Translations under genes and position numbers: made by a program
In this document: in pieces, positions 12,866 through 56,164 of the stretch
Position numbering within the stretch: the first letter of the stretch is position 1
Layout: each line of letters opens with the position of its first letter
Notes under the pieces: model-generated
What the model was told of the DNA's origin: nothing
The model's database searches: none
What the model saw: only the letters and a program-made list of their open reading frames with translations
Assembly: GCA_964023275.1 (NCBI GenBank)
Contig: OZ029923.1
Span: forward strand, 3,235,041 to 3,299,040
DNA length: 64,000 nucleotides
Source of the DNA: Norana najaformis
Taxonomy: Eukaryota > Annelida > Clitellata > Crassiclitellata > Hormogastridae
Direction of reading: 5' to 3'

Positions 12866-12941
<76 letters not shown>

Positions 12942-20876: not shown

Positions 20877-20970
20877 ATGAGACCTTGCTGGACTATGGCT
20901 GGTCTGGTCTGCAGATTCATCCTTCTGTCAGCTTTCGTCAGCCTGACACAGTGTTCTCCGATCACAGCAA
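20877..20970 (+). CDS. receptor B exon 1: signal peptide
   Basis: The ATG begins MRPCWTMAGLVCRFILLSAF, then VSLTQCSPIT: a basic start, a hydrophobic core and a small-residue end, a typical secretion signal. Donor GTAAGT follows one base into a codon. It is the only ATG nearby giving a signal peptide in the phase of exon 2. Confidence 0.8.
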
Positions 20971-23900
20971 GTAAGTAGGGTTTGTTGACGACTACGGCGA
21001 CGACGATGAAGATGATAATGATGATGGTGATGATGATCATGAGTTTGATGATGCGTTTTATGATGGTGATTATCATGGTGATGACGACGACGATGATGCT
21101 GATGCTGATTATGATGACGATATAGGATGGCGTCCTTTAGGATGGTGATATTATCGTTATGATGGATTGATGATGAAGGAAATGATGGTGGTGTTGGTGG
21201 TGGCAGTGGTCAATATCATGGTGGAGATTAAGATGATGATGACGAAGATAATGATGACAATGTTGATGAAGGTGATGACCACGAGGATGATGATGATGAT
21301 GATGAGGAGGAGGAGGAGGAGGAGGAGGATCATGATGAAGATCATGATGAAGAAGATCATGATGATGTTGGTGAAGAAGAAGAAGAAGATGATGATGATG
21401 GTAACGATGATGACGATGATGATGATGATGATGATATTTATCTCATCATTAAGTTGAAGATGACATAATGCTGGCGATGATCATAAAGGATGCTATTGCA
21501 AAATAATCAACAATATCATCATCATCATTATCCTCGTCATCTTCATAATCATCATCATCGTCAGAGTCACATTAGCATCATCATCGTCGTCGCCATCGTC
21601 ATCATCATCATCATCATCATCATCACGTCAAAAACACTTCATAACCGTAGCTTAGAGTCTGCTCTTCTTCTTTGAAACTTCAAACACAACATCTCTTCTT
21701 TGTTTGTACATTGCAACCGGCTCCTCTTCTGCCCTAGCACTTCTCCGCCCTTTCGTCACCTCATCCTTAAAATTTGGTAATTGCTGCATAGCCATAGCTT
21801 CCCCACCACTCTGGAATAAACTCCCCCCAGAAATGCGACAGTTTTCTGACCCATCATACAAACTCATCGATGCTTCACCGCTTGCAATTTCTGCTTCGAC
21901 CTTTCACTCAAAACTGAAAACGTTCTTTTTTCTCAGATCCTATCTTGACACCTCCTTCTTCCTCTTATCTCTCTCTGCTCTCCAACCCCAAACACCACCA
22001 CCCCGTAGCTGCCACGCTGTCTCTTCGTCTGACTTTCGGATCTTGACATGGAACCGGACCCTTTTGCCTATCGATTTTGTTTTTACTGAGCTCCTGTGAA
22101 TAAGCCGGTCCCCGCGGCGCGGCTTTTGTTGGGCGCTATAGAAATCTCGGAATTATGATTACGATTACGATTGCAACATTTCTTCGGATGTTGTTTACTT
22201 AAGCCCACGCGACCTTTATTGAGGACAAATGGAAAGCTGATCCTGGGGCCATTTAAGGTCATTGATATAAGTTATGTGACATGGAGCTGAAAGATCGAAC
22301 AGCCCCCACTTTTGGCATCACGTGCTCTTCATCAAAATCTAAGGTCTTCATATAAATTGAAGACTCAAGTTTTTGCCGCAACAGGAAACAATTAGAAAGC
22401 CCAATTCCTCTTAATGCCGGTCATGTGATGTTCCTCTATTTGAATTTTTAACACACTCCTAATTCTAGTGATCCTAAGGCAGGTGTGCAACAGATGTTCT
22501 CAGATAATTTATTCTTTAATGTCTGGTTATAACACGGATTAGGGTGGCTTATCCAAAACTATGTCCCTGAGGAGGTATTTTATTCGGCGCTGTAAAAATT
22601 TGCGACTGCAAAGGGGATGGAGACAATTGGTTAAGACCTTGTTTCTTTATGTACTTTTTCCTATGCCAAATATTTTCATGAACGTTTTGTAGTTTTTGTG
22701 ATTTTGATGGCCTCTTTTGGTTCCTCAGTTTTGGATGACCTGTTTAGTATCTGATTTTTTAATAAAATTTTTTTGATTTTTCTGATTTTTATGTCCATTT
22801 TTCCATTTTAGTTTCCCAGTGTTTTTAATGAACGTTTTATTTTTTAATTTTTATGAGTTTTTTGTTTTTTATTTTTAGTTCCTCAGGTTTTCGGTGACCT
22901 TCTAAGTTTTACTAATCTTTAAGGGCTTTTAAATTTCTCACTTATTAGAAGACTTTTTTTATCTTTTCTGATTTTGAAGGCCTTTTTTGTTCTTCAGTTT
23001 CTTGATGACTTTTCTTCATTTTCCAAGTTTAGTAGGCAACCGTCACCCCAACCCTGAGGCAATTACTTGCCCACAAACTGAGATGGGGGCATGGACAGAT
23101 CTGCTATTGATGGCGGCCAGAATACCCATCTCATCACACATGAATCTTTCAGTCTGGAAAAGGTTGCCTAGCAACCTGCAATAAAGTTACCCAGCAACCT
23201 GCAAAGAGATTGGCTAGCAACCTTATTTGCCTATGTTTCATCTGCAGTTGAAAACGATTCTGTTCAGTGATGGGATTGTGATGTCTTGCTGGTAGAGCCT
23301 CTTGAAATGATGCTATATATTATACTATAAAATTTAATTGTATTGATATTCATTAGCAAGAGACATGAATATATATTATGTTAATTATGTATGAATATTG
23401 ATATTCATTGAAACAGACTTGATTGTACTATGTTAACTGAGCATAAAATAATTTTAATTAACAATAGACAGTATTATACATAAACATTTACTGTCATATT
23501 TATGCAGCAATCACGCCTTCCACTCCTTCTGCCTTCAGTGGTCGTAACATTAACATGAACTGTACCCTGGAAAGCACAGTTGCGAGTGACATATCGGCCA
23601 GCAATTTATCTTTCTCTTGGACAAATCCGGAGTTGAATGAGAAATCTGTAACTCGCGTCATCAATAGTCGTACCATCGCCCTTACAATCACGAAGGTGTA
23701 TGCCAATATGTCATCCAGCAGAATTTCCTGTCGTCTGGGCAATTATACCCTGGATGAGGTCGCCATTGTTGTAGGTTAGGCCTGTTTTTGGATGAATAGT
23801 TTACTTAGAAAAGCTGCGACTGGTATGTGAAGTTAACAGCCTTAAAATTTGTAGTTTGTGACATAGCTGCTCCACCCCTATAGAAGCTCAACAACACTTC

Positions 23901-26900
23901 ATCTGTTGCAGTTTCTTTGCTGGTCTTTTTCACTCGAAACTGAAAACATTACTTTTTCAAAATCTCATCCTGATTCTTCCTCTTCCCCTTATCTCTCTTC
24001 CTGCTCCAGTTCCAAACACCATTCGCCGTAACCGTCCAACTGTCTGCCTGCCTGACTCCTGGATCTTGACCTGGAGCCGAACACTTTCTGCCTATCGATT
24101 TTGTTTAGACTGAGCGCCTGTGAAATCTCGAGATTACGATTTCCGTGACTGTTGGTTGGGCCATGGATGAGGTGCTTCTCATTTAGACAAGGGTGCAAGT
24201 AGTAGGTTTTTAGGTATAAGATTTATTAAGAAACCTCTTTTATTATGTTCTTTTATCACCTTGAGGCAAACTAAAATGAGCACTTCAGCCGTACACTGTT
24301 GAAAGAGGGATCAGACGGTGACGGCGGCAGAGAAAATTACTTCACTGATGCTCAGTACCCATCTACAATCTCTGTCCCTCAAGGTTAGCTTCAAAGTAGT
24401 AAGGAAAGGGCAGGTTTAGCTTCGCACACTCACCAGGCACGGGCGATCATAAGCCAAGAAATGACCTACCTTCTCCTTTCTCTTATTTTATACATACATG
24501 TGCAAATAAAGAGATACAAATAAAGAGATAAACTTTATAGCATCAAAGCACTTTCCCCAAATAGTCTACTCTAAGAAGTACTGATATTCTCCTAAGTAGT
24601 CTACTCTTTAAGGTCCTGGTGTTCACCTAAATAGTCTAATCTTAAGGGTACTGATATCCTCCTTCCTTGTCATCATCTTCGTCCTACTGCTTCTATTCCT
24701 ACTTCTCTTAATCCTCTTCTTATACACTTCAATTTGCAGCGCCATTTCCTTTGCCTTCACTTTACACCTACGTTGTTGCTATAAATCTACATTCTATGTT
24801 TGTTTTACAATTCTCAGATGAACCTCGATTCCCCAACCCTCCCGAGTGTGTTGTCTACAACTGGGACAGCATGACTTGCTCCTGGGAAGTCGACGAAAAT
24901 GAAACTTCAACCATTTCGCTGGCTTGGAGTCGATCGTAAGTTTCAGATATCAACATATTACACCCGTATTTCATTTACTGTATTTGCTGCCCATTGGGCA
25001 GACAATTCAGTTAAAATTGGTATTGTAGAATTGGATTGGACACATACTGGATTGATGAAATGGATTGGTCACATACTATGTGGAAATTCTCAGTGATCGA
25101 AGGAAGAATTGAGTGAAATAAGGTTCCAGGAAGAGTAAGGAATATGCTGTTGGACTGGATGACTGATAAAGAAAGAAGACGAGGCTACAAAGAAGTTAAG
25201 GAAAGGGCACAGAACAGATAAGAATGGCGTCATTGGATTCTTGGACTGGCCTAAGGGCAGAACACTGAAGAAGAATTGTAGTTCACAAGGTAATACATTT
25301 AATCCAAAGGACCCAGTTTCTGCTCAATGCTTGCCCCATATACCAACAAATGTTGCACTCGATCAACGGACACTGACTATTCCTGTGCCTCGCACCAGAA
25401 CAGTGTTGGTCTCTAGGGCATTCTCAGTGGCTTGTCCGAAGCTTTGGTATTCACTGCCCAGTCCTGTTCGTTCGGTCAGTTCTTTTACGTTCCTAAACTG
25501 AAGACTCTGAGATCTTTTTCAACTTACTTACCCACCCTGACTGTGAACTCTGATGTACATGATTAGATGTGCAAAAGCGTGGTACCACCACCGCCAAGCC
25601 TTCATTGCCTTGGAGATTGGCATATGCAAGATTCAGTGAGGGCTGTCCAGGAAAGAGGATTCTGAAATCTATGATTTACTCAGCTGTGTACGGTGTTCCT
25701 ACCAGGCACCGACAGTTCCAAAAATTACAAGGAGGGTAGGTCAAGGGCGTATTTGTTGGTGACCTGTCCTTTTTCTGTAGGTCATCGGTCATTTTGATTA
25801 ATTACTGGTACCTTTATTGAATTCCAGATTTCTTATGACCTCTTGTTTAGTCTCCTGATTTTTAACGATTTTTTGACTGTTTTTAGTTTAAGATATCAAT
25901 TGCCTTTAAGAGTTCCGAGATTTATTAAAAAGAACCTCTTTAAGTTTACATGTTTAGTAGGCAACCCAACCCTGCCTTGTTCGGGGCCTTGTTGCTAGCA
26001 GATAGTTTAGTATGGGTAAGAATTTTCTTGTTGGGGTTCACGTAGTATCTTAATTAAAGTTCACAAATATGCAGTTATATTTAGTTTACTTTGCTGTCCT
26101 TAGTTGATATCTTCAACATACATTAACAAATTATCTATTAAATTGCAATATTTTGTACTTTAAATATTGTAAACTAAATACTGATCTAGAATATGACATT
26201 CAGGTTGTCAATATGCTGGCCAGTAGTTGTTAGAGACAAGATTTCGTGAAAGGGGAGAAGTGTAGAGTCAAGATATTTGAATTAAACAAATTAAACATTT
26301 TGAGTAAATTGACATTTTTTGTAAAGCAGTTACGTCAATTGTTAAATTTACATTCTTGCTTAACTTAAGATTTCTGGTTACATTTCTGTTTGTCTATATT
26401 TCAGTTAATTTTCAAATAATACAATTTTTATCCTATAGCAGTAATATTGAGCAAGATCATAAAGACATTATAATGACAGTAAGATCATGAAGCAGTAATA
26501 TTAACCAATGATAAAAATACCATAAAGGTAACATAATGATAATAAGATCATAAAGCAAAAAATTAAGCTATGATAATAAGGTCATAAAGATCACATAATG
26601 ATAATAAGATCATAAAGCAATATTATTAAGCAATGATAATAAGACCATAAAGCTATAATATTAAAGAATGATAGTAAGAAGATCGATAATAATAACAGAG
26701 TACTCGCTGCCCTGTGCTAAATCGGAGAGAAGTTAAGCCTTTCTTACACTGGAAAATACCACAGATGCTACTACGGCAACTATCCGCCCCTTGCCACCTC
26801 TTGCATTTTCTGTACAGGTCTTTCACTCCAAAGCTAAAACATTACTTTTCCAAAGATTGGCTCCTGTTATCTTTCCCAGAATCACGATTTTGCTTAGCAA

Positions 26901-28549
26901 ATGACCATCAACTGATGCCTTGAGCATTATTTCAGTGGCGCTATAGAAGTTATTAGATTAGATTAGATCAGATTATCTCCATATCTTTCATGCCGATCCA
27001 ATTCCAAACACCATCCACCGTAGCCGTCCGTCTCTCTACCTGCCTAACCATTGGCTTTGGGCTTGAAACCAAACCTGACCTTACCTGCCTTACCGATTTT
27101 GATTTGACTGTGCGCTTCCGTGAATAAGCTGGTTCCCGCAACTTAGCTTTTCTGTTAAGTTAAGTATCCTGTATCTCACAATTGAGACGTAGTGGAGACG
27201 ATCATTTCATTTCTTAGGCCCTTGAGCCGACAATGGACGAATCCCAAGGTCCTGGTCACGGGGCCAGTGCACCGCAGAACTTGCCCTTTACTTCCAAGCT
27301 TAGGCCTACGCCAGTACCAAATTAAACTGCCTGGTGACAGAGGCATGGTGTGCGCAAACAAAAGATTTGCCCACGGTCGTTACACGGTGTCGAAGCCGCA
27401 ACCGCATGATCATTGTCCAAAAGTGTACCGATAGACCACTGTTAATCCAGAAATTGCAATTACGATTGTATGATTATACGGATAAGACTTAGCATGTGTC
27501 ATGATTTCTTATCGTTACAAAGCGCTTCCTTACAAAGATCGCTTAGATATTTGTACGTGTACTTGCTTCTTCGTCTTCTATAGAACGTGTAGATCAGACA
27601 AATACATGTGTCCTCGCCCGTTCCGTGAACGTGGACGCGGCAGTTGCACATGGAGTGCACTTGATCAAAACACAAATTATTTCATGTATTTGGACCACTG
27701 CTTGGCCTATGCGATCACAAATGCTTTCAGTGCGATGGCACTTGGCAGGAATACATTTGTCAGGATTGAAAACTTGGGTAGGAATTTGTTACAGGTGGCT
27801 TCGTGTCGAGATTGCTTTGCTCACGTATGAAAAGCATGTTCCACCACTAACAACTATAGTAACTAATACAGCTGGTTGTTTTTGTTAGCATCAAGAGACA
27901 CTACTAATGCATCGCAATTGTAACTTAACGTGAATGCTATTAAAATATTTTTTATTCAATTATGGTGTCAATACCTAGTCCAAGAGTAGTAGAGTGAGGA
28001 TATTCAAGTTGTGTGTGATTTGGTGTTATGTTGAGCCTAACAATGGTCAACACTGTAGCATGCGTAGATTTCGCTAACAATAACGCAGTTCTTTATACTG
28101 TACACGGTATTGCAGCCTTCAAGTTGTACCGTGTCTCGACATAGATTACTTCCTACTATCTCTCAAGTACCACAGAGTGTTTTCTTTTCCTGGGTTGTAA
28201 TTTGGTTGAACACTTGTCTGAGATTACTTACAGTGGTTGAATCACCTGTTTACCTACCAGCTTGCTTTGATCAGTATTCATTTACTGACTCCAGACGAAT
28301 TGAAGACTGAGTTTGCACCATAGTCTGGTATCAAATGAATTATCACACCTTCAAGTGCTAACCTGGCTCAGTGCTGCTTAACGTTTGTGCACCAGAGAGA
28401 TTTGTTTTGTCAGGTGTTGGAGAATAGTGTGATTGTGGATTTTAGTAAAGTTTTGACTGAATTCTGTTTAAATTTCTATATTTCTTACAAAAATTTTGAA
28501 TAGATATTTTATCGCTGTGCATTAAAATATCCTGCACAAACACTGTGAA

Positions 28550-28612
<63 letters not shown>

Positions 28613-30634
28613 GCATTTACTGCGCACACACGGTCAGTGAATCTGATTCTGAGGCGCGAAGCAGTTGTGAGTGAAGGACTTGCTCAAGGTCCCTACACAG
28701 TAACCGTCTAAGAGGAGGAGGCTCGAACCCGACCTCTCCACGTTACAGACCGAGCGCTCTATCCAATCGGCTACCATGACCTACATACAATCCGAGCGCT
28801 CTATCCAATCGGCTACCATCATATCCAATCAGTTGTTGTAGACAATATCGTAGTTACTGACTACAGTAAACAGAAGCAGGAAAATTGATTGAATACTGAT
28901 TGAAATTCAAGCGAAATGTGTAACTGATATCGATGTAGCAGGACGGTCGAATAGTTTACAATTCCAGGCATCTGTTCACGGCTGTCATGCCCCACTGCCA
29001 GTATCCCAATATCCATCCGTCTAGGATATGAGTTGAAATATGGGTGAACGAGTGGATGTGAGTTCGTGTAGCCGGGCTTAAGAATTATATTATGAGGGCA
29101 CCATTAGTGTGAAGTTCCGAGTTTTGTACTCTGAATGCGCATGTGATTAAATGCAGTAGAGTTGGAATTTTGCGCAGTTTCAACGAGAGACGGCTGGGAA
29201 AGTTTTATGTGTACAATGGCGTATTGACAAATTAGATGTTACTTGTGTTTCGCATGTAACTTTTGTTTTAAAAAGTAAGGTGTCCTATATTCCACAAATG
29301 AGACTTAGGGGTTTCCTTTTCTTTTCCTCTGAGCCGGTGTCATGAAATAAAGTTCCCCCAAACAGAGTCTCTCCCCGGATTGGAATAATGTCTCCCTCGG
29401 AGACTCTTTCGGAACAAATTCTCCCCCATTGAAATGAAATCTCCCCATCTACAATACAATCTCGCCCCCATTTAAAACCGCCCCCATTTTAGGTTCATTT
29501 AAAATCAGATTTCATATATACAATATTTAAATAAATGCCTTCTGTGATGTTGTGTTCATTCTTCTTGATGTGAAAAATGCTTTATAGCATTTGCCCAGTT
29601 AACATATAACGCCACTAGGATATTGAGCGTTGGCGGTTTTAGAAGGCGGCGGAGGGGTTAAGTACGTCTTTGCATAATAAAGAAAAGGCCTTTGTTTACT
29701 ATACAGATTGGACCGTTAAGGAAATGACTGTAACTTCTTTCAGAGCCAACGCATATTATTTACATAACGTGAATTCAGATATAGCCCTGACTTCGGAATA
29801 AATCTTTTATAGTTAATCCCCTTCACATTCATTGGTACTGGATTTCTTATACCAGTTAGCTCTGGCTTCACTGTAGTTCTTTAAACAAGTACAAAAGATG
29901 ATAAAACAAGCAGCCAATGTTGTTAATTTTAAAAGATGGTTTGAAGAAAGGACACCGATTAAGTCTCGCGATTTAGATAAAAGAGATGAGAGACCACCTT
30001 CCATTTTGCTAATTGGCCATGAACAGGAGAGAAAAGAAAAATGACCGCAAACATTGAAACTGATAACTCGCCAGCTGCTACAACAGCATCGAAGGCTAAA
30101 GAAATTCAACTTGCATAAGCTTGACCGATGCAATCTACCTTCTGACGAGTGGTAAACGACAACCTGATGGTAAGTATAATCCCTTGGTTGTTCAAAAATT
30201 TCCGGAGAAAAAGAGAGAGAGGGATTCTGGAACGGCTAATACTCGTCTGGATTCGGCACCACAAATGTACCGTGGAAGGCGACTGCATTGAAACGCTGTA
30301 ATGTTATAGATAAACGTTGAAAAAGGTAACCTGTTTCTCTACCATCTCCGGATATGAGGGACAATATACGTTCCAAGTCTGTAAGAAAGGTCATACCCAA
30401 ACCATTGATAGGGCCTAAAGTCTCAAAGGCCAGAGGGACAAAGTGGTAAGCATTAGTGAGATGATCATATTTCAAAGGTTTTCTATCGACCGCCAGTTCA
30501 GCTGCGCCTCCTGCTGTAACAGAGGTTGCCTGTAAGTAAGAATGTGCAAGCGTGTCAATCACGGTGACATCCCATAGGAGGCTGCGCCCCGAACGCCAAG
30601 GAATCAGAGTAAGGCCATCCGGTTATTGTTGTTG

Positions 30635-30699
<65 letters not shown>

Positions 30700-31262
30700 C
30701 CTTCCGTACTCCATGCGCCGCTGGTCTAAAGTGCGACCGCCACAACAGAGTGGGTTTGGGCTTAAGTGGCGTATTTTAGCCTTTTGACTGAGACTGCCCG
30801 GTTTGCAGCTTCACTTGGTCCGGTTGAAGTAAAACCTAGATGTGACGTTGCAAATGTGTCCGAAACTGTCACATCCCATGTAAGACACCTTCCGCGAGAC
30901 CACGGGATAAGAGTCACGCCATCCGGTCGTTTGCCATCTTCCCTGGTGAGTCCCAACGGTTCTTTCTGAGCAGGGATGTTGGCTCTGGTAAGCGCTCTCC
31001 ATATAATGTCGTTAAGCATGAAATGGCATTGTTGTCTGCCAGCACTCTTTCTGCAGACCAGACCGTGGAGTCCTCTGGCGTCGACTCTTTCGCCACAGTG
31101 ACACAGATGTGGCTCGCACAGTGTGGTTACCAGTCTCATTCCAACCGCGGTCCGTATCACCTCATCCGAAAGACGGAGTCCCAATGCGGTTACTGGAGGA
31201 GCCAGCATCCAATCTCCAGAGTGTGGTGCTTGAGAGGCCAAGAGACGAGCGCGGTCTAGTGG

Positions 31263-31345
<83 letters not shown>

Positions 31346-31426
31346 CGGTGATCGGTTGATCGGTGTCACTGTTGATCCTTTTCAATGATGCTTCTCTGCA
31401 ATTATTAATATCAATATTATTATTAA

Positions 31427-31490
<64 letters not shown>

Positions 31491-31559
31491 GCCTAAAGAT
31501 ATGCATTTTTCATCTGACAACAACAACAACAATTACTACTACTACTACTATGTAACCAC

Positions 31560-31657
<98 letters not shown>

Positions 31658-34600
31658 ATGTTCATAGTAGAGTTCCTGAGAAGCAGATGGCGTTCCCACG
31701 CTGGACAGCTACTGAGAGTCTTTGAAGCAGGTAGCTGGTCTCCAGTGGATCTTGGGTTGCCATTGTCATCCTTCGTCCTAACTCCCACACAAAATCCAAT
31801 CCTTCCGTACTCCATGCGCCGCTGGTCTCCAGTGCGACCGCCACAAAAGAGTGGGTTTGAGCTATAGTGGCGTATTTTAGCCTTTTGGCTGAGACTGCCC
31901 GGTTTGCAGCTTCACTTGCTCCGGTTGAAGTAAAACCTAGATGTGACGTTGCAAATGTGTCAGAAACTGTCACATCCCATGTAAGACACCTTCCGCGAGA
32001 CCTCGGGATAAGAGTCACGCCATCCGGTCGTTTGCCATCTTCCCTGGTGAGTCCCAACGGTTCTTTCTGAGCAGGGATGTTCGCTCTGGTAAGCGCTCTC
32101 CATATAATGTCGTTGAGCATGTTATGGCGTTGTTGTCTGCCAGCACTCTTTCTGCAGACCAGACCGTGGAGTCCTCTGGCGTCGACTCTTTCGCCACAGT
32201 GACACAGATGTGGCTCGCACAGTGTGGTTCCCAGTCGCATTCCAACCGCGGTCCGTATCACCTCATCCGAAAGACGGAGTCCCAATGCGGTTACTGGTTA
32301 TTATTATTATTATTATTATTGTTATTGTTGTTGTTGTTAATGTTATTGTTGTTGTTGTTAATGTTATTGTTGTTGTTATTGCTGTTATTATTATTATTAT
32401 TATTAAATGTTATTATTTTTATTTTGTTATTATTTTTTGCCCCCGAGGTACCTATGATCCCTTTGGACTTATAAGAAAAAGGCTCAGGAGAAATAAAATC
32501 TCTGGGTAGGCTAAATATCGTAATTGTTTTTGTTGTTGTTGCTGCAACTGTGGCTGTTGCTGTTGCTGTTGCTGCTACTGTTGTTGTATAGGATCCCATC
32601 AGAGGACCAAGCCTTAAAAACCCATTCGACCGTGTCTAGAGAAAACCACATAGACCATGGCTTTAATTGGGGATTTCTTGAACCATGCCTTTGAAGACCT
32701 CCAGGACTTCAAGGACCTTTGAAGTTCTTAGCGGCATTTGGCCCATAGGCCATACGCCTCTAAGAATTTCAGCGGACTACTCCTAATAAGACCTGGGCCA
32801 TCCATCAGTCATAGTTTAAGTACTCTAAAGGTCAGACTTTTGAGGACCCAAAAGATATGCTTTCGAGGACTTAAAGACCATCCATGTGAGGACCCCAATG
32901 GACCAAACCTTTGGATGCTGAATTACAAGGCCTGCGAGCAATTGAAGCACGATGGCTTCCGGACACTGCAATGTCTCGTATAATCTGGAACCAGATGGGA
33001 AATGGTTCTGACAGTTTCATTTTCTCCTCCAGTTTCTCTGTCTGCCCAACTTTTATGAGCGTGAGTAACCAAACTTCCGCTTTTTCTGCATGTTTGCCTT
33101 GAACGTTGATTGCAAGTTTGAAATAGGGTCTCTCCTCGGTAGTTTCCTTTTGATCGCTAGGCCTCTGTTAGTATGTTTGTTAAACATTTAGATCGTTTGT
33201 TTGGTGATGGCCTTTCATACCAAAGTACTAACAGTTCGTCTAGTTTGGCTTCGTACGCTACTAACATTAACTGATTGTGAGCAGAAGTTCGAAGTGTAAA
33301 TTATTATCAGTTGTGTCAGATGTTTGTAATGTAACTGTTCAAACATACATTGGCACAGTATGGCTGTGAGAGCTAGATTATAAAGAAAGATGAAGATGCA
33401 AGAATCAATACATTTGAAATGAAGTGTCTGCTGCAGAATCTGAGAGTACCTCGGACTGCTAAGAAGGCAAATGAGTGGGTCCTAGAGACAACAGGAGTAG
33501 AGAGGAATCTGCTGGGATTAATCTAATAGAGGAAGCTTTAATTCTTCGGACGTGTCCTATGAAAGCATGGAGACTGCATAAAGAAAGAGGTCATCCAAGG
33601 GTACAATTCCTGGATCCCGAGCTCGGGGAAGACCCAAGATGACACGGATAGATAACATCAAGTAAATTGTAAATTTTACACGTTTTTTTATAGCGACCGT
33701 ATGGCTCGACCCTAACGGGTGAGATCCTTCACCACCGCTACACGCCATTTATGGTCCCCGTGCACGAACTGTGCTAGGTTGAGATTCAAATCTCTGAAAT
33801 AAGGCACCACGCGAACCGGGGATCCTCACGCACAGATAACTCCTTGGCGTACGCGCTTACCGATGTAGCTAAATAAGCCAATGGGCTGAATTATCGTTCA
33901 ACCAGTTATTACAAGAGACGAGGGACAGAAGCAGTTGCTACAACGTTGTCCGTGGTGCTACCAATCGTCGGGTTGAGGACGATTGAAGAAAAGACAAAAC
34001 GTGAGCGCTCTAAGAGCTTTAGTGGGTAGTGTGTGAGACACTGAATTTTGGAGTGGGTAAACTGTACGACACTTCAGAAGTATTAAATTAGAGGAATTAA
34101 CGAGTAGAACTATTACTCAACAGTGTTTTTGTCCGGATAAACAAGACAAAGTATTCCAGAGGTAAAACTTCAGCCAAAGACAGTATGCAGTAAGCTTATT
34201 AAGCGAAATTGTTCATTAACGTGGCTCTTGACGGGCCAAAGATTATGTAAAGTAAGATTAGGTGAAGTATGTATGTTTTAATGTGTATGTATGTATGAGT
34301 GCATACGCATATAGGTATGTACCATGTATGTATGTATGAATGTATGTATGCATGTCTGTATGTAAGTATATGTATGTATGTGTGTATGCGTGTAAGTATG
34401 TATTTATATGTGTTTGTGGGTATGTATGTATCTATGTATGTGTATATATTAATGTGTATGTCTTTATGTTCATGTATGTATGTCTGTATGTATATGTATG
34501 TGTGTATGTATATGTGTTTGACTAAATAATGTTCAGTGTACCAGAACTGTCACCACTCGGAGGCTCTCGCATGCTGGTACAGCCAGCCAAATGAATCCTA

Positions 34601-37510
34601 TCAATAGCTGACAGCTGACAACATTATTAAGAGTTCCTGGTCCACCACGGGTACGCTCATCTACTGGTACCCCCCTCGCGGATGGTAGAAGACGCAGCAT
34701 CCGGATTTCTCTGAAGCAACCAGGTCTGTGGAGGACAGGTATTCGTCAGTTGCCGGCCGACTGGTTCTAGAACCTCTCGGTGATTGACGGTCTCTTGCCC
34801 ATGAAAGACTGCTGCATCGTTGCTTCACTGAATCCGAGCTTTCCCGGTCGCAGACGGCATTTTTAAGGTTAAGAGGAAGGTCGAGTCAAAGGCTGTGGAA
34901 GATGTCATTAAACAGCGGATACTACAGAGGGGAGTATATATATAGTTGGCGGATTCAAAGGGAAAAGATGAAATAAAGGAGTTTGTATTCATTGTATAAA
35001 ATTCAGTGACCTGTACCCAATCAGGCGTATGCCCATTATGCAGTAGAGGGCAGCACGTATACCGTGATGTGATATTTGTTATGTAGTTAATATAATGTTA
35101 TTCGATGCTAATGATTACGATGTTTATTTCAGGTGTCACACTGGCAACAAAATTGCTGGACATGTTTGTCGACTGTTATTTGCTTCATTCTTTGGTTTAT
35201 ATTTTCGTTTTCACACAGTTAAACCAGATCGTGTCACAAATATTGCCGCCAGTGTCGCGGCCTATGAGGTCGACCTGAGCTGGTCGCCTCCTTCAGCTAG
35301 AAAACAAATCAACTATAGAGTCGCATATGCATCTAGATTTTCAGGCATTTTAGTAAGTTTGACGTTTGTCTTTTATTTCGGAGTCAGATTCTGATATTTT
35401 ACTGGTCACAAAGAATGCAAAATACATTGGATTAATAAAATAAAAATAAAATAATAATAATATTAATAATGATAATAATAATAATAACAATTATTATTAT
35501 TATTAATTGGTAACTTCTAATGTGCTGTGATGGTGCACCAAAGCCAAGCCACAATCAGATTATTATCCATAAGCAGAGAGACGGCCTACAGAGGATATGC
35601 AATTTGAAAATATTAGTTTTAAGTTGAGAACAAAATGACAGAAGCAGAACGAATAGACACAGGAAGGGAGTTCCAGAATTTAGGTCCAGCAACCGAGAAA
35701 GCCCGTACATTCGAGAACAGTTGTAGTCCAAGGTATGACCAGAGAAAAACAATCAGATGTACTTATGAATAACACAACTTAACATAAAATAACACAACTT
35801 TACATAAGATAACAACACGAACTATCGTGAGATAATATGATATAGGATAACATAGCATAGCATAACATAAAATAAGAAAACGTAAGATAACATAGCAAGA
35901 TAATATAACGTAGCATAATATAAGAAAACATAAGATAACTAACATAATGATGATATAGTATATAATAACATAAAATAAGAAAATATAAGATAATAACAGA
36001 TAACATGGCATAATAACATGACATAAGAAAGCAAGATAACTTAAGATAATGACATAAGAAAACAAGATAACATAATATAATGTAGAATAACAGCATGAAA
36101 TAACATAAGGTGAGCGTAATGGGTTTTAAGGGGTTCAGAAGACAATTTATTTGTGTTAAAACCACTGCAAATTTACGCACACGATTCCTCGTCAGCCAAT
36201 GGACACGTGGCTTGCTAGCAAATGTCTTACTTACTTACTTACCCAGAGTGATCAATGGGCAATTGTTCCTAACTTCTGAAAAACTACTGTGGGGTCCAAG
36301 AAGACAATACTCAAATATTCCACTTCAACAAGTTGTACCATGTTTAAAGAAAGAGATATAAATAAAGAAATAAACTGTCTAGTATCAAGGCACTTTCTCT
36401 ACCCAGATCACCTTTATGCTTGCATATACAGTAAAAATATTCACTACTCTCATACGAAACAATGCAAACGTCTGGTTGACACAGATTACCGATAAGTAAT
36501 CCTCACCATACTTACCTGCTTCTTCTTCTGCTTCTTCTTTAGTGTTCTGCCCCTAGGCAGATCCAAGAATCCAACGACTCCACTCTTCTCTGTTCTGTGC
36601 CCTCTCCTTGACTTCTTTGTAGCCCCGTCTTCATCCTTTATCCATTATCCAGTCCAACATCATATTCTTTGATCTTCCTGGAACTTTCCTTCCCTCAGTT
36701 CTTCCTTCAATCACTGTCCTTAGGAGAGAATTTCCACGTAGTATGTGAACGTTGTCACCTTCTTTTGTCGTCATTCTCAACATGCATGGGATTAGTAGAG
36801 AAGTGGTTTCCCGTTGCCTTCCTCCCGATGTTTTTTGCGAGACACCATCTCAGAAGCGTCGATGATCTCCATCGTCCGTCCTTCTGGCTCTTCAGGAAAC
36901 TGGACACTTGCATCTACCGGGAAAGACTCGGTCGCCCAACATACACTGCTTCAACGGGAGGACTACGTGTAGGTGGTATGGTGGACATTTGGTCATCAGA
37001 GGGTTTAAGAGGCTCTAGATGTCCCATTTTCCTCCCACTTATCTGCATACGTACATATAATATTATATCTTTACAGGGTGCTTGCAGATGTTCAAGTTTG
37101 ATGATGATGGTGATAAAGTCGATGACGACAACGCCGATAATGATGGGATGATGACACCGATGACGATGGCGGTGGAGAACTTCATGCTGATTAGTTTATT
37201 TTCGTTGACCTCAGATAAAAAACACCACTGCAATATCGATTACCCTTTCCAATCTCATTCCAAACACGAAATACTCGGTTACCATTGACTGCATTCCAGT
37301 CATTAGAGGTGTCGTCACCGGATTCTGGAGCGATAACCATACAACAGAATTCACAACTAAACCAGATGGTATGCACATTTGTTTAGTTAATTTTTGTTTT
37401 TATCTGTTGTATGTATAAAATAAGAAAATAACCAGTCCCGATATCTCGCCGGTTGCATGCTACGAAAATACACAGTGAAATTGTTCTAAATAATAATAAT
37501 AATAATAATA

Positions 37511-37545
<35 letters not shown>

Positions 37546-40500
37546 CATCATAATAATAATAATAGTTGTGTTTTATTCTTTTCTCAGGGAAGGCAACTGT
37601 GGAGATTAGAGGCTCAAAAAATGTGTCATTTGATTTTCGGGAGGAAAAGCAGTTCGTCTTTCAGTGTCATGTAACTTCCGAATCGGGTAGACCTCCGATG
37701 GGGGTATGGTACAAGGTACAACCGTATGGTGACTTAGTTCGTGATGACCCGCCTTACGTCTATGTAACAAGGGATCTCTTGATTATAATGATTGGTCCTA
37801 ACTGCTCCACTTTTTGCACTAAATACCTCGGAGAATACAGGTGCGTTGCTCACAATGGATACAGCCGAGGAAATGGCACTATAACACTTTCCTATCAGTA
37901 CAAGTCTCTACCAGGTGAACACATTAAAAGCAAATGTTATTTAGCATAAGTGTGATGCTATCATTTCAGATTAGCTCTAAATAATTCCTGATACTAAATG
38001 AAAGTAGGGCTGCCAACTTTTGATTTTGTCAATCCGGGATGCCCGCATAGTCACTGAATATGCCAGTACCAATTTACCCTGTCCACATGATTGTACTGTA
38101 TGTAACGAATGTTGCATCAGCCTAATGTAGGATCTACTGCAAACAGTCATTAAAAATTACCGTCACATGATTTGACTCAAATCATCAAGAGACAAATGCC
38201 TGTATATAAAGTTTGAATCAACTTCAAGTGCAAAACGTTTATTAAATCCCAGTAACCTACCAGGCTTCAGGGCCCAGCACGAGCGAAGTTCATATAGGCC
38301 TATACATGTATGATGCATGCAATTTGCAGATGTCATTTATTGGGTCTACTAACCTAACTACTCTCTATTCTATCGGCACTCTGTAAAACTTATTTACGGC
38401 CGGCTGTTCGAGTTTAGTGTGCGAAAAGAACAACATTTGGTGAAGTTCCGGTCAATTTCGGATCAATCCGGGACATGGGACGCACAAGAACGATTCCAGG
38501 ACTGTCCAGGCGAATCCGGGACGGTTGGCAGCCCTTAATGAAAGATTTAGAGCAGTGATTGAACGTTCACATATACACATTTATGAAAGAAGAATATAAG
38601 CCTCTCAATATTTACTTCGCTTAGCTGTAAATAATAAAGTCTCAAAATTGACGAATAGCCTCTTAAATGCCAGATATAGGGTAGACCTATGTTTATAAAA
38701 GAATAATATTCCAAACGTGTAACTTACTTTGTTTAATTGCCTCAAAAGATAATTTCGAATTTCTGCGTTACTGTAAATTTCTTTTACAGAGACATCGATG
38801 GAGAACATTCAAAGTAGGCCTACAGTGTGGACCGTAATTCTAGGAACCTGTGTTTGTGGCCTATTTCTGCTTCTCGTCGGAGTTTTCTTTCGCTTCCGTT
38901 GGAAGCGATACTTTGGTGGTAAAGAGGCTATTGCATTTTTATTTTACCAGGCTTTTGTAGAGAATGGGATGAGGCCACTTGCATCGGGCCTTTGCTGTAC
39001 ATTAAACAATTTGTATACGAATATCTGGACATTTTGTAACGCCGTCCAAGGCCATTCATATGATTTGATTGTTCAGCTTACAAGAAAAGGTTGCGATATT
39101 TTAATTCATGAAGCGGTGCCGAATGGTTTGTAAACCCCAGGATAAAACGTTTTATAAATTTTGTGGACATACATGTTTGTACGAATATGTGTAGTATATA
39201 GGCAGAGTTAGGCGTTATGTCCCTATGTCTCTAAGGATATCTCTTACAAATGCAATGATCGCCAGTCGCGTAGATTATTAACTCGCTTCTTGAGGTATCA
39301 TAAAGTTAAACATGCAGAATTTCTAGAGAGATAAGAACTCTGTAGCTAGAGTCTTAACTGATACATGACGATATGAACATATAAGATATCTGCTTGAATC
39401 CTTGCATTGATTTCTTGTTCAGCAGCGGATCTCTTTCGAATTGGGACTTACATTCGATGAAACATTAAATTGTGGCCGACCACAATACTTAGAATAATTA
39501 TTTATTTTCCAAACTTATCATGTTCAGTTGGTTCGCCTGATTGCCTTTCTCTATTTATTTAAAAACTAGAATTGTTCATGGCTATAAATTAGTTCTTTCG
39601 GTTACTGGCTCTCGATTATGGCACTCTCTTAGAGCATGTGTTCGTTCTTCTCCGTCTCTCATGCCAGTTTGGTCTTAGGCATAAAACTCACCTCCTTTGA
39701 GCTGCTAATCCACAATAAACTGTCTTCCTGTTTTAGCGGCCTCACCTTTAAGATATTGACCTGTCTACGGCTTGATTTGGAAAGCCATCGGTTGATGCTT
39801 TGTGCAATATACATTGGCGCTGAAAAACTGGCTAAATATTAATTTCTATTGCTGCTTTTATTAAAGTGAGTTTCTAACCCTCTTTGACCTAATTTAATCC
39901 GTACATTCCAGTAGTAACCAGTCATTCTATCGCCTATATTTATTTTATATTTTAGATGCGAACAGACGGACTAAAGAAAGAAGATTGCCCAAGCCTCCTA
40001 GCATGTACGAGCGTGTAGACTATGATGCAGTAGCTCAGGGTCTGGAAGCAGGAGGAAACAATGAAGGATTGATGCCACGAGCATGCAGCATGTATGAACA
40101 CATTGGTTATGACTCGATTGATCAGGTACTGAAAGAAATGGCAAGCATAGAAAATGCGATGTCGCAATCACATGATGTGTATGGAGAAAACCGATATGAA
40201 ACAATAGATGCACCACAGAAGGAAGCGATAGACAGAGTTAGACGGCTGCTCGATGAAAATACCGCTCTGGAAGATATCAAAAATCGTGGGAAAAGAGACC
40301 AACATCAAATCCACGGTTGCGAATCAGTAACTAGTGAATCAGATAAATTTCCATTCTCAAATGAGCAACCAGAATCAATGAATCCTTACCTGGACCTGTG
40401 TGAAGAAGAGATGTATCCCTACATGGGTATGGTTTCAAAAGAAGTGAACCCCTACTTGGATCTGGTCTCGAAAGAAGTAAATTCCTACATGGATCTGGTT

Positions 40501-40881
40501 TCGAAGGAAGTGAATCCCTACATGGATCTGGTTCCGAAAGAAGTGAATCCCTACATGGATCTGATTTCGAAAGAAGTGAATCCCTACATGGATCTGATTT
40601 CGAAAGCAGTGAATCCCTACGTGGATCTGGTTTCGAAGGAAGTGAACCCCTACATGGATCTGGTTTCGAAAGAAGTGAATCCCTACATGGATATCAGCCC
40701 GAAGGAAGTGAATCACTGCCTAGATATAGATCAACAAGAAAAGGATTCGTCCTTGGTTTTGGGATACTTGGATATGGGCCCGAAAGAGCTGGATCCCTAC
40801 TTGTATCGGACTCCAGATCCGGTCTCTACATCAGCGTATACAACCTTACATGAAACGGAAGGTGTCGCTCTTCAGAACTAA
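20877..40881 (+). CDS. Ig-CHD-Ig class I cytokine receptor B with tandem ITAM-like tail
   Basis: Nine exons with matching phases give 780 residues: 20877-20970, 23508-23774, 24818-24935, 27584-27777, 35219-35352, 37215-37368, 37588-37914, 38790-38918 and 39956-40881. Order: signal peptide (about 1-27), Ig domain (about 32-120), cytokine-receptor D1 (121-225) with Cys-x9-Cys-x-Trp, D2 (225-321) ending FWSDNHTTEFTT, Ig domain (321-429), transmembrane helix (about 441-463), then a 310-residue tail. D2 resembles gp130 D3 closely, so the cytokine-receptor assignment is firm. A membrane-proximal Ig domain after the CHD is unusual. The tail carries a Pro-rich box 1-like motif (RRLPKPPS), three Tyr doublets, and a run of ten YxxL/I/M motifs at 11-residue spacing. 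It probably signals through SH2-domain proteins; JAK/STAT or Syk-type routes are both possible. No known orthologue is recognised. Confidence 0.87.
20996..21630. repeat. GAT/GAG and CAT trinucleotide tracts in receptor B intron 1
   Basis: GATGAT/GAGGAG at 20996-21450 and CATCAT at 21508-21627. The two are inverted in sense, so they could pair. Confidence 0.9.
21650..22172 (+). mobile_element. 5'-truncated LINE 3' end with GATTAC tail
   Basis: It starts in an ORF2 C terminus (FGNCCIAIASPPLWNKLPPE and then STFHSKLKTFFF, typical of L2/CR1-like elements). It continues through the GTTTTTACTGAGCTCCTGTG 3' UTR and ends in repeated ATTACG. It is the most complete 3' end of this family in the window. 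Confidence 0.75.
22640..23085 (+). repeat. Low-copy interspersed repeat (T-rich)
   Basis: A T-rich block containing GTTCCTCAGTTTTGGATGAC and ending TTAGTAGGCAACCGTCACCC. Similar copies at 25780-26000 and, reversed, 44455-44705 share the TTTTGATGGCC / CTTTTAAATTT / TAGTAGGCAACC order. Family not recognised. Confidence 0.45.
23508..23774 (+). CDS. receptor B exon 2: N-terminal Ig domain
   Basis: Acceptor TTATGCAG, donor GTTAGG. It encodes an Ig-like fold with NINMNCTLES (B-strand Cys), NLSFSWTNP (C-strand Trp) and SSSRISCRLGNYTLD (F-strand Cys). Several N-glycosylation sites are present (NCT, NLS, NMS, NYT). A better-looking donor GTAGGT four bases earlier would break the frame of exon 3, so GTTAGG is preferred. 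Confidence 0.82.
23885..24141 (+). mobile_element. LINE 3' end, internally deleted
   Basis: Includes TTTTTCACTCGAAACTGAAA and the GACTGAGCGCCTGTGAAATC junction, where the section between 'CTGTGAA' and 'GAAATCTCGAG' is missing, then a short GATTAC tail. Confidence 0.65.
24818..24935 (+). CDS. receptor B exon 3: cytokine-receptor D1, first half
   Basis: Acceptor TTCTCAG, donor GTAAGT. It encodes RFPNPPECVVYNWDSMTCSW, the Pro-rich lead and Cys-x9-Cys-x-Trp signature of class I cytokine receptor D1 domains, then ETSTISLAWSRS. It leaves in phase 2. Confidence 0.9.
25045..25500 (+). pseudogene. LINE ORF2 C-terminal fragments
   Basis: The first part reads MKWIGHILCGNS and then MLLDWMTDKERRRGYKEVKE with stops, a LINE ORF end shared with 12408-12666 and 36520-36780. 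The second part reads SRAFSVACPKLWYSLPSPVR, another LINE C terminus. These may be two nested insertions. Confidence 0.6.
26445..26700. repeat. AT-rich tandem repeat (ATAATAAGATCATAAAG)
   Basis: Six or so degenerate units of AATGATAATAAGATCATAAAGCA in receptor B intron 3. Confidence 0.8.
26700..26960 (+). repeat. LINE-like element with TTAGATTA tail
   Basis: CTTTCACTCCAAAGCTAAAA, then CATCAACTGATGCCTTGAGC and GCGCTATAGAAGTTATTAGA ending in TTAGATT repeats. Related 3' ends: 12095-12150, 39600-39845, 47490-47560 (forward), 48490-48560, 57560-57650 and 58490-58580 (reverse). Confidence 0.5.
26970..27165 (+). mobile_element. LINE 3' end
   Basis: CACCATCCACCGTAGCCGTC, then GATTTTGATTTGACTGTGCG and a diverged end. 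It directly abuts a tRNA-derived SINE at 27165. Confidence 0.55.
27165..27445 (-). mobile_element. tRNA-derived SINE
   Basis: Same family as 18962-19236, with GGACGAATCCCAAGGTCCTG and TGGTGACAGAGGCATGGTG. The head lies at the right end (GTACCGATAGACCAC on the + strand). Confidence 0.6.
27584..27777 (+). CDS. receptor B exon 4: cytokine-receptor D1, second half
   Basis: Acceptor TTCTATAG, donor GTAGGA. It encodes TCRSDKYMCPRPF, GRGSCTWSALDQNTNYFMYL and ITNAFSAMALGRNTF. Cys pairs and the late 'N-A-x-x-x-x-L-G' stretch align in position with gp130 D2. The intron that follows is 7.4 kb, the longest in the gene. Confidence 0.85.
28615..28780 (-). mobile_element. tRNA-derived SINE, third family
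   Basis: Minus-strand head GGTAGCCGATTGGATAGAGC then CGCTCGG, B box GTCGGGTTCGAGCCTCC, body ACGGTTACTGTGTAGGGACC. Its 3' end meets an (ATT)n run. A partial duplicate of the head follows at 28785-28820. Confidence 0.65.
30236..30625 (-). pseudogene. Non-LTR-type element C-terminal region, copy 3 (divergent)
   Basis: Minus-strand reading gives [20 protein letters not shown] then VIDTLAHSYLQATSV and GYLFQRLSITLQRFNAVAFH, the same domain as copies 1 and 2 but a diverged subfamily. It is 5' truncated at an (AAT)n run. Confidence 0.6.
30699..31260 (-). pseudogene. Non-LTR-type element C-terminal region, copy 1 (broken)
   Basis: It is about 95% like copy 2 over its length and begins LDRARLLASQAPHSGDW. 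It has two in-frame stops after KRLKYAT where copy 2 is open, and is cut off after SGAWSTEGL by an (AAT)n run at 30627-30697. Confidence 0.65.
31263..31655. repeat. (ATT)n tracts between non-LTR copies
   Basis: ATT runs at 31263-31345, 31421-31490 and 31560-31655, with others at 28551-28612, 30627-30697 and 32297-32405. They coincide with the ends of the non-LTR copies and so look like 3' tails or insertion targets. Confidence 0.9.
31662..32297 (-). pseudogene. Non-LTR-type element C-terminal region, copy 2
   Basis: A 207-codon open stretch (ATG at 32285) begins MGLRLSDEVIRTAVGMRLGT. It has a zinc-type motif (CEPHLCHCGERVD then HGLVC) and RPDGVTLIP followed by LTWDVTVSDTFA, resembling the PD-(D/E)xK core of restriction-like endonucleases in site-specific non-LTR elements. 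It ends RLSVAVQRGNAICFSGTLL. An (ATG/AAT)n run follows as a 3' tail at 31560-31655. There is no reverse transcriptase, so the copy is 5' truncated, cut by an (AAT)n run. Confidence 0.65.
33375..33663 (+). pseudogene. LINE ORF2 C-terminal fragment
   Basis: Plus-strand reading RINTFEMKCLLQNLRVPRTA, then NEWVLETTGVERNLLGLI, then stops and HGDCIKKEVIQG. A decayed LINE region just after the reverse-transcriptase thumb. It lies in receptor B intron 4. Confidence 0.55.
35219..35352 (+). CDS. receptor B exon 5: cytokine-receptor D2, first half
   Basis: Acceptor TCACACAG, donor GTAAGT. It encodes VKPDRVTNIAASVAAYEVDL and then SWSPPSARKQINYRVAYAS, the FnIII A-C strands, including the Leu-x-Trp and Tyr-x-Val-x-Tyr positions of the gp130-type D3 domain. 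Phase 0 exit. Confidence 0.9.
35760..36105. repeat. A-rich minisatellite (ATAACATAAGATAACATA)
   Basis: Degenerate units of ATAACATAAGATAAC and AAGAAAACATAAG in receptor B intron 5. Confidence 0.85.
36515..36785 (-). pseudogene. LINE ORF2 C-terminal fragment
   Basis: Minus-strand reading NSLLRTVIEGRTEG, NMMLDWIMDKG, RRGYKEVKERAQNREEW, with stops. It is the same family as 25045-25265 and lies in receptor B intron 5. Confidence 0.55.
37215..37368 (+). CDS. receptor B exon 6: cytokine-receptor D2 with degenerate WSxWS
   Basis: Acceptor TGACCTCAG, donor GTATGC. It is in phase with its neighbours and free of stops. It encodes SITLSNLIPNTKYSVTIDC, then GFWSDNHTTEFTTKPDG. The first half of WSxWS (Trp-Ser-Asp) is kept and the second Trp-Ser is Asn-His. 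Confidence 0.9.
37588..37914 (+). CDS. receptor B exon 7: membrane-proximal Ig domain
   Basis: Acceptor TTCTCAG, donor GTGAAC. One exon encodes a whole Ig-like domain: FVFQCHVTSESGRPPMGVWY (Cys and Trp core) and LGEYRCVAHNGYS, the Tyr-x-Cys motif of the F strand. Two extra cysteines (CSTFC) may form a local disulphide. Phase 1 at both ends, as expected for a shuffled Ig module. Confidence 0.88.
38790..38918 (+). CDS. receptor B exon 8: transmembrane helix
   Basis: Acceptor CTTTTACAG, donor GTAAAG. It encodes WTVILGTCVCGLFLLLVGVF flanked inside by RFRWKRYFG, a positive stop-transfer stretch. Read-through past the donor stays open until a stop ending at 39133. Confidence 0.9.
39956..40881 (+). 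CDS. receptor B exon 9: cytoplasmic tail with tyrosine-motif array
   Basis: Acceptor TATTTTAG; 308 codons including TAA. Residue order: box 1-like RRLPKPPS (482-488); Tyr doublets SMYERVDYDAV (490/495), SMYEHIGYDSI and DVYGENRYETI; a charged linker; then eleven 11-residue units from residue 615. Tyrosines fall at 617, 628, 639, 650, 661, 672, 683, 694, 705 and 716; unit 11 has Cys at 727. After a 5-residue shift, YLDM (743) and PYLY (754) repeat the same spacing. The last tyrosine lies in AYTTL. The whole tail from the juxtamembrane segment is one exon, so the array can be lost or gained by splicing as a block. Confidence 0.93.
40381..40743 (+). repeat. 33-bp coding tandem repeat (11 units) encoding YxxL-type motifs
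   Basis: Units of exactly 33 bases start at 40381 and encode, in order, YLDL, YMGM, YLDL, YMDL, YMDL, YMDL, YMDL, YVDL, YMDL, YMDI and a decayed CLDI. Spacer consensus is (V/I)SKEVNP. Units 3-9 are nearly identical in bases, mostly differing at single codons, which points to recent expansion or gene conversion. Length is always a multiple of three, so the frame is preserved. Confidence 0.97.
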
Positions 40882-41733
40882 AAAGGCATATTCGCATTTT
40901 TATCCTGGCTAATGCAGTGACGTTTTATTACTTGTTTAAGTCTTTGTGACAATAGAAGAAAATCAACGATGTGTATACAATAGGTCAATAAATAAGTCAG
41001 TATAATAAGTCAGTTCATTATTCATGGTAATAAAAAAACTCCTCGGAAGTACGTTTCCCGAGCCACTCGCCATTAAAGTGTGGGGTATGTGATTGGCAGG
41101 ACTTGATTTCCTGTTATTAGCAAAGCATTTGCTAGGAAAGTTCATAATCGTAATCGTATTCGTTAACAATAGATGACTTAAATAAATTTCAAATTGTAGA
41201 ATTCATGTATCGCTACGAAAGAAGATTATTGTCTTGTGTATCTGATAATTATTTCAAACATTTCTCTCAACTTCATATATATCCTACAAGATTTCAGGAT
41301 AATTTTTGTAGTACTTTTGCATGAACAAACACTAGGTATTTCAACATTAAATGTTTTGGTCCGTCAATCTGGCAATTTACCTTTAAAAATCCGTAACCTA
41401 CCTAAACTGTATGTGTTTAAAAACAACTGCGTGATTTCTTAATCATGTCGCTAGACTTTCATGTCTAACACATGTATGTATTTAGACTGTTTTATTTCTG
41501 TTTTGGAAGTCACAATTATGACTCATTTTGGGTTTCTTAGATCACGATTGTGATCCTTTTTCTTAGTTCAGACTTTCTTTTTAGTTAAGTCATACCTAAT
41601 ATTTGTTAAATTTTTTTGTCGCCACATGCATTGTTTTGTAATTGGCGGCCCTAATTTATTGGGATCTAGGTCTACCATTTGTATCCCAATAATTAACTGT
41701 ACACTGGCTAATGTATTTGTTCTTTTTTGAATC

Positions 41734-43125: not shown

Positions 43126-56164
<13,039 letters not shown>

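Follow-up and report, generated by a model that had tools for sequence, protein, structure and literature searches.

A predicted gp130-like receptor gene

The window, i.e. the whole 64,000-nucleotide stretch of Norana najaformis DNA analysed here (C11:3235041-3299040), contains a predicted gene of nine exons, which runs from 20877 to 40881 on the forward strand, as do all of its features given below. The model was built from splice signals and phase; it encodes 780 amino acids with no internal stop, and all phases join (intron phases 1-1-2-1-0-1-1-1). Exon 1 (20877..20970; ATG at 20877 or 20895), placed by a hydrophobic N-terminus and a phase-1 donor (GTAAGT), would supply a signal peptide, and exon 2 (23508..23774) a putative N-terminal Ig-like domain. 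Exon 3 (24818..24935), with C131-x9-C141-x-W143, and exon 4 (27584..27777), which was chosen by splice score and phase and fits the frame, would make up the two halves of a first cytokine-receptor-like domain, while exons 5 (35219..35352) and 6 (37215..37368) share a fibronectin III domain, the latter with FWSDN at the WSXWS place. They are followed by a membrane-proximal Ig-like domain in exon 7 (37588..37914), which has 49 matches on C15 (see below), by the one clear transmembrane segment in exon 8 (38790..38918; amino acids about 441-463, hydropathy maximum 2.73) and by exon 9 (39956..40881), which, as judged from the model and from homologues, encodes the entire cytoplasmic tail of 308 amino acids up to the stop TAA at 40879-40881. 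A candidate polyadenylation signal (AATAAA) lies at 40987..40992. Of two predicted tandem fibronectin III folds in the spliced ectodomain, the second matches Pfam fn3 over the cut-off (E 3e-10, across exons 5-6), whereas the first is seen only through IL6Ra-bind (E 0.1), which is below the cut-off, as is the match of the N-terminal Ig domain to Lep_receptor_Ig (E 0.018).

The first domain reads C131-x9-C141-x-W143-x25-C169-x11-C181, compared with CX9-10CXWX26-32CX10-15C in class I cytokine receptors (PMC1963337); its long gap, spanning a predicted splice junction, thus counts 25 residues instead of 26-32. At the WSXWS place (GFWSDNHTTEF) the first WS is present and the second absent, in a motif described as slightly variable, e.g. 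in GHR (PMC1963337). With the second WS lacking, we describe the receptor as gp130-like rather than counting it among the class I members in the strict sense. A Box 1 is only suggested, by the proline-rich RRLPKPP near the membrane (RRLPNLP and RSLPNPP in homologues). The CHD occupies predicted exons 3, 4, 5 and 6, at whose borders the phases are 1-2-1-0-1, and a complex splice structure is common to gp130-like genes (PMC1963337). With its signal peptide, Ig domain, multi-exon two-domain module, transmembrane segment and long tyrosine-bearing tail, the predicted protein resembles gp130/IL6R-type class I receptors, including the gp130-like receptor of Ciona (PMC1963337). It likewise resembles the molluscan IL6R-like receptors, invertebrate proteins with Ig, IL6R and FN3 domains, transmembrane segment and tail, in whose phylum STAT5A/B also occur (PMC13203501). 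On the other hand, it differs from gp130, which has five membrane-distal tyrosine motifs (PMC13203501), in FWSDN for WSXWS, in a second Ig domain by the membrane and in a tandem tyrosine array; extra FN3 domains as in gp130 were not found in the window receptor model.

A sequence search of the PDB returned FN3 proteins (fibronectin, Eph receptor, tenascin, receptor phosphatase), a weak match to EBI3 (IL-27 beta; E 0.06) and, at E 0.47, a single surface protein of bacterial origin, with no gp130 chain among the matches. When the full-length protein was searched against those 7993 candidates that had most words in common with it, none was hit at E 0.01; the tail alone did find relatives. The structure model of the Ig exon (pLDDT 46) was too poor to serve as a search query. 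Taken as a prediction from sequence, the gene model is convincing, and it agrees with the initial annotation in placing the array in a cytokine-receptor tail encoded by exon 9, the last exon.

Elsewhere in the window, pieces upstream of the receptor (5669-14572, forward strand) appear, by eye, to belong to a second receptor-type gene. They include FN3-like stretches at about 5.7 and 9.2 kb and a TM-like exon at about 11.68-11.78 kb, and what may be a Ser-rich tail ends close to 14572. These pieces gave no Pfam match over the cut-off and, with tblastn, only a match at E 0.94. Inside intron 4 (30239-32297, reverse strand), repeated retroelement-like pieces, again recognised by eye, adjoin long AAT/TTA microsatellites; 31665-32297 had no Pfam match. 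Besides, two arrays, each with about 23 copies of a 16-bp unit (44984-45358 and 46391-46747), form an inverted minisatellite pair about 1 kb apart, the consensus of one being the reverse complement of the other's, and a 579-aa open frame on the reverse strand (50852-52588) shows sub-threshold similarity to zf-AD (E 0.006) and perhaps encodes a mobile-element or domesticated protein.

A coding minisatellite with a tyrosine at every eleventh residue

From 40381 to 40743, in register and in the coding frame, exon 9 advances in 33-bp steps. As defined by Tandem Repeats Finder and unit translation, ten units (40381..40710) read Y-[LMV]-[DG]-[LMI], and an eleventh (40711..40743) is degenerate, with NHCLDI and Cys replacing Tyr. 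The initial annotation had described ten Tyr-x-x-Leu/Ile/Met units, with a tyrosine every 11 residues, over this whole span. The ten units are confirmed (their tyrosines are model residues 617, 628 ... 716; +3 residue Leu in 8/10, Met in 1/10 and Ile in 1/10); its start and register, the seven residues from Leu to the next Tyr and the acidic residue at -4 were right as well, while the span turns out to contain eleven units, only ten of them with Tyr. Tandem Repeats Finder gives a period of 33 bp, 8.4 copies and 88% matches (40415-40692), and none of 5000 composition shuffles of the tail reached its 11 tyrosine pairs at +11. Despite this non-chance spacing, the units are copies of each other and hence do not represent ten independent occurrences. 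Since the array joins eight predicted upstream exons without phase conflict and independent tail homologues match in the same frame, the frame is coding, and the array is a coding 33-bp minisatellite.

All ten array tyrosines fit YxxPhi. The units could accordingly be endocytosis signals or a membrane-lying 11-residue amphipathic helix instead of phosphotyrosine sites, which of the explanations weighed here we hold to be the least probable. In favour of a helix, the Pfam family that the tail matches best is Apolipoprotein (though well short of the cut-off), its PDB matches are apolipoproteins A-I/A-IV in 12/12 cases (best E 5e-5), a single-sequence model has helices at the array (pLDDT up to about 74), and the helical moment at 98 degrees is 0.41 against a permuted mean of 0.23. 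However, 6.8% of permutations reach this moment, which is not significant, the model is of low confidence overall (mean pLDDT 48), residue 2 is Pro in 9/10 units, and ten endocytosis signals would be redundant. The apolipoprotein and perilipin matches were set aside, those from Pfam being below the cut-off, and attributed to the 11-residue periodicity.

ITAMs mostly carry a polar residue at +1. The initial annotation had likened the units to ITAMs, which tandem-SH2 kinases such as Syk read; on such a reading, each adjacent pair would be an ITAM for a kinase of the Syk or Shark type. Strict ITAM spacing (YxxL/I-x6-8-YxxL/I) does hold for 7/9 adjacent pairs, both pairs with unit 2 (YMGM) failing. 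Yet the acidic residue is misplaced, as none of the seven ITAM-spaced pairs has one within 0-2 residues before the first Tyr (6/7 if three residues are allowed), and the +1 residue of the array is hydrophobic. STAT5 sites, for their part, prefer Leu or Val at +1. In sequence, the units match the STAT5-type docking pattern YxxL (PMC11685922), 8/10 of them as Y(L/M/V)xL.

Related tails within and outside the genome

Far from being the lone oddity of the initial annotation, the receptor has relatives in the same genome that bear the array too. Searching the 608-Mb, 17-contig assembly with the tail gave 59 matches. One is the window itself, 37 lie on C15, and the remaining 21, elsewhere in the genome, are weak (E 7e-9 at best). 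Those on C15 cover parts of about 22 places between 22.48 and 23.34 Mb, plus one weak match at 23.75 Mb, and the best of them by rank is 67% identical, with short pieces reaching 80%. With the membrane-proximal Ig exon as query we obtained 52 matches, all of them free of internal stops. Of these, 49 are on C15 (C15:22459187-23813313, 1.35 Mb), in many cases with no more than 29-40% identity, while C11 (self), C14 and C3 have a single match each. The 49 matches are not a gene count, given that L064 has two Ig exons 1.9 kb apart ahead of one transmembrane exon. Judging from these matches by Ig exon and tail, the C15 stretch appears to be a large, fast-evolving tandem cluster of receptor-like genes. 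The family is larger and stranger than the initial annotation had seen.

Tails were taken from 23 places, 22 of which yielded open pieces; among 20 further stretches behind more distant Ig exons, a motif filter retained tail-like frames in seven (L034, L035, L040, L044, L047-L049). In the best open piece per place of 24 rows (the 22 places plus L034 and L040), the longest run of tyrosines at every eleventh residue was 13 in L020, whose frame stops inside the array, followed by six in L015, L016, L017 and L022, five in L009, L010 and L014, four in L011, L013 and L028, and one to three in the other 13 rows. Several paralogue arrays, read as pieces only, end in a broken frame. By reading, six tails are complete (window, L010, L011, L018, L026 and L040), and the longest run among these is that of the window.

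The tails of L026 (same place as L044) and L040 are short and consist of one SKE(V/M)NPYMDL unit and then YTAL at x9; L034 resembles them in a shorter frame, L035 is without a unit, and the distant members L047-L049 have YMEL-x10-YADL. By reading, the C-terminal x9 pair is complete in L009, L010, L018, L024, L026 and L040 and broken in L011, L019, L021 and the window, where comparison of the model with paralogues places degenerate flanking units and the C-terminal pair (YLDM 743, YLYR 754, YTTL 767) at 40765..40848, YLYR being the broken member. The single unit with YTAL of the short-tailed paralogues suggests that the array is the amplified first half of an ancestral two-tyrosine motif, and amplification of one ancestral site would be the simplest history.

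Outside the genome, the tail search found seven matching protein fragments (three at first, seven with a profile; best E 7e-49). In the alignment of these with the window, tail residues Y46, G50, Y51, S53 and D55 (SMYEHIGYDSID) are invariant. Hand parsing recovered units at 11-residue steps in 6/7 fragments, some with 5-residue inserts; Tyr is present in 23/43 of these units and lost in 20/43, and the +3 residue is hydrophobic in 20/23 units with Tyr vs 13/20 without (P 0.09, not significant). Over the seven fragments, L/I/V/M follows at +3 in 50/78 tyrosines, against 29 at the offset that comes second. The units of P0005 are otherwise quite different, but its five in-register tyrosines all lie in Y-x-(D/E)-(L/M), a sixth unit having Asn for Tyr.

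These relatives also bear on the ITAM proposal. Strict pairs occur in P0001 (2), P0005 (2) and P0007 (1), and a C-terminal YxxL-x9/10-YxxL pair recurs in the short-tailed and the distant paralogues; however, a spacing of 9-10 is outside 6-8, the other four homologues are without a strict pair, and three of these (P0002, P0003 and P0006) lack a loose pair as well. P0003 has four array units with YxxPhi, whereas the other two are short fragments. In view of such relatives, which keep YxxPhi without the spacing, the similarity to ITAMs is, as far as the sequences tell, one of spacing and not a membership, and it is very unlikely that adjacent units are read as ITAM pairs. ITAM receptors do share with the array a multitude of YxxL/I sites, as in the TCR complex with its 10 ITAMs, whose multiplicity amplifies TCR signals (PMC4428620), and this would be the nearest known precedent for site number mattering. 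Nevertheless, they comprise separate di-tyrosine motifs read by tyrosine kinases, whereas the array has a continuous 11-residue period, a hydrophobic +1 residue and a displaced acidic residue.

Selection, candidate readers and signal amplitude

The tail has 21 tyrosines in its 308 residues. Of the 11 outside the array, eight have L/I/V/M at +3 (background 0.20, P 2.3e-4), while at every other offset from -5 to +7 at most five residues are hydrophobic, which makes a multi-site phosphotyrosine tail likely. The many-site scaffold envisaged in the initial annotation gains from these sites, yet it fares less well in the array, where the codons are under almost no purifying selection. YxxM occurs in the tail at 626, 628 and 743; YxxQ and YxN were not found in the 308 residues.

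According to the model and the paralogue alignment, six membrane-proximal tyrosines (Y490, Y495, Y519, Y524, Y548 and Y553) lie at 40006..40197. We compared 11 tails, namely that of the window and ten that were picked from the 24 rows because their core is open. Y519 and Y524, in the SMYEHIGYDSIDQ core (40087..40125), are retained in 11/11, Y495 and Y553 in 10/11, Y490 in 7/11 and Y548 in 3/11; equivalents of Y519 and Y524 are present in 8/8 sequences of the homologue alignment as well, although the placement of P0007 is less sure. In the array, pN/pS between places is 0.91 (bootstrap 0.81-1.01), as computed from the 11 window units together with 95 cleaned units of 21 paralogue places, and the Tyr codon is kept no better than other array columns (difference -0.21 to 0.10). 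Visible constraint is hence found in the core, and the array is fast-evolving. The ten window units differ from their consensus by 13.5 synonymous and 21.5 nonsynonymous differences (ratio 0.43-0.60, P 0.06, not significant). Tyr is present in 81/95 cleaned paralogue units, 76/81 of them with a hydrophobic +3 residue, but so have 14/14 units lacking Tyr, and the +3 residue is accordingly not tied to Tyr. An apparent link between the two in unfiltered paralogue units (Fisher, P 2e-8) rested largely on non-array windows and was gone after the filter. This filter dropped 24 windows by pattern (23 paralogue, one from the window), eight of which were an RNSD/INSD/RTSD-type stretch at the array start; since unit finding required 4/6 anchor residues (Tyr not among them), strongly diverged units were missed.

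The near-neutral array codons, next to a core with visible constraint, are the main evidence against a dosage function. They would fit a minisatellite that expands and contracts in a disordered tail, unit number being without selected function and the working sites being the conserved membrane-proximal tyrosines, an explanation we think unlikely, if a serious one. It would account for Y519 and Y524 persisting while runs range from 1 to 13, and for the broken frames at the end of several arrays. However, the frame is open through the whole window array and the complete array tails of L010, L011 and L018, and diverged homologues (P0005) show the unit period again, as well as Y-x-D-Phi. Besides, the membrane-proximal part evolves nearly as fast (pN/pS 0.87 over 147 columns in the 11 tails), so that a ratio near 1 is typical of the tail and no proof that function is absent.

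As for possible readers, a STAT_bind search of the genome gave four matches. A STAT SH2 exon located on C6 scores highest against STAT5A/5B (52 bits; STAT6 42, STAT2 38, STAT3 34, STAT1 26). An SH2 scan gave 131 matches. Of three tandem-SH2 pairs, from each of which one exon was compared, one is p85 and two are closest to SHP2 (C1 and C10); further pairs on C6, C15 and C10 are alike by eye only. Among the SH2 exons compared, none came out as Syk-family. On C10, several SH2 pairs stand in a row (about 11.587-11.983 Mb), of which two that were read look alike and one exon is closest to SHP2, possibly reflecting a local expansion of tandem-SH2 phosphatases. On C8 (about 30.389-30.615 Mb) there are six partial SH2 matches in a row, two of which, when read, were nearly identical and Src-family-like by eye. 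Genome searches for a JAK domain and for molluscan haemocyanin gave no match, nor did their controls, and are hence uninformative.

With such SH2 exons in the genome, the tail might mainly be a scaffold for tandem-SH2 phosphatases of the SHP2 type, an ITIM-like core and tandem YxxL motifs binding both SH2 domains. Five tail sites fit the ITIM pattern [SIVL]xYxx[ILV] (motifs from 488, 493, 517, 522 and 765; four are membrane-proximal), yet none of the ten array units does, the residue at -2 of Tyr being Asn in 9/10, and we rate this use of the tail as improbable.

Our leading explanation, held tentatively and at somewhat less than an even chance, is that exon 9 encodes a gp130-like receptor tail with an amplified docking site for single SH2 domains, whose unit number sets amplitude. 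Its computational footing is the gene model, the array, the family with its single-unit relatives, and SH2 exons closest to STAT5, SHP2 and p85. Through the coding minisatellite, a single ancestral docking site, NPY(L/M)D(L/M), would have been copied many times; it was probably the leading half of a C-terminal YxxL-x9-YTxL pair, which is single-copy in short-tailed paralogues. What we infer beyond this is expression, JAK binding, phosphorylation, reader identity and a dosage effect: once ligand is bound, a JAK associated with the receptor would phosphorylate the tail, each pY-(L/M)-D-(L/M) would be an independent site for one SH2 domain, and unit number would set the local concentration of the reader and with it the signal amplitude. 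A STAT5-type STAT would be the first candidate reader, SHP2 the second, and PI3K p85 might bind at YxxM units. Docking of single SH2 domains is favoured since YxxPhi is common in the tail, P0005 keeps Y-x-(D/E)-(L/M), the STAT exon on C6 is nearest to STAT5 and P0003 is without ITAM spacing.

Many similar phosphotyrosine sites within one disordered region are also a feature of the multi-YxxP/YxxM docking proteins p130Cas and IRS. These are, however, cytosolic adaptors whose sites are not known to lie in a near-perfect nucleotide repeat, whereas the array is a nucleotide repeat in a receptor tail. No tandem tyrosine array in a cytokine receptor is named in the titles and abstract openings searched, which lie mostly outside the subscription literature, and the word 'repeat' is absent from the text on molluscan IL6R-like receptors (PMC13203501).

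Two class I receptors have been described in the sea squirt (PMC1963337) and one in the fruit fly (PMC3296744). The large, apparently cytokine-receptor-like cluster on C15 contrasts with these few known from other invertebrates. The effect that the number of near-identical phosphotyrosine sites has on receptor output is usually studied with engineered receptors. Here, one genome holds related tails with runs from 1 to 13, a natural series in docking-site number, in which scaling of output with unit number can be tested. It is possible, though we would not call it probable, that a mutable coding minisatellite serves this receptor family as its gain control, with the C15 cluster as a natural titration series, and that SHP2-like readers may have undergone local expansion as well. 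If so, receptors within one genome would differ in signal amplitude through docking copies gained or lost.
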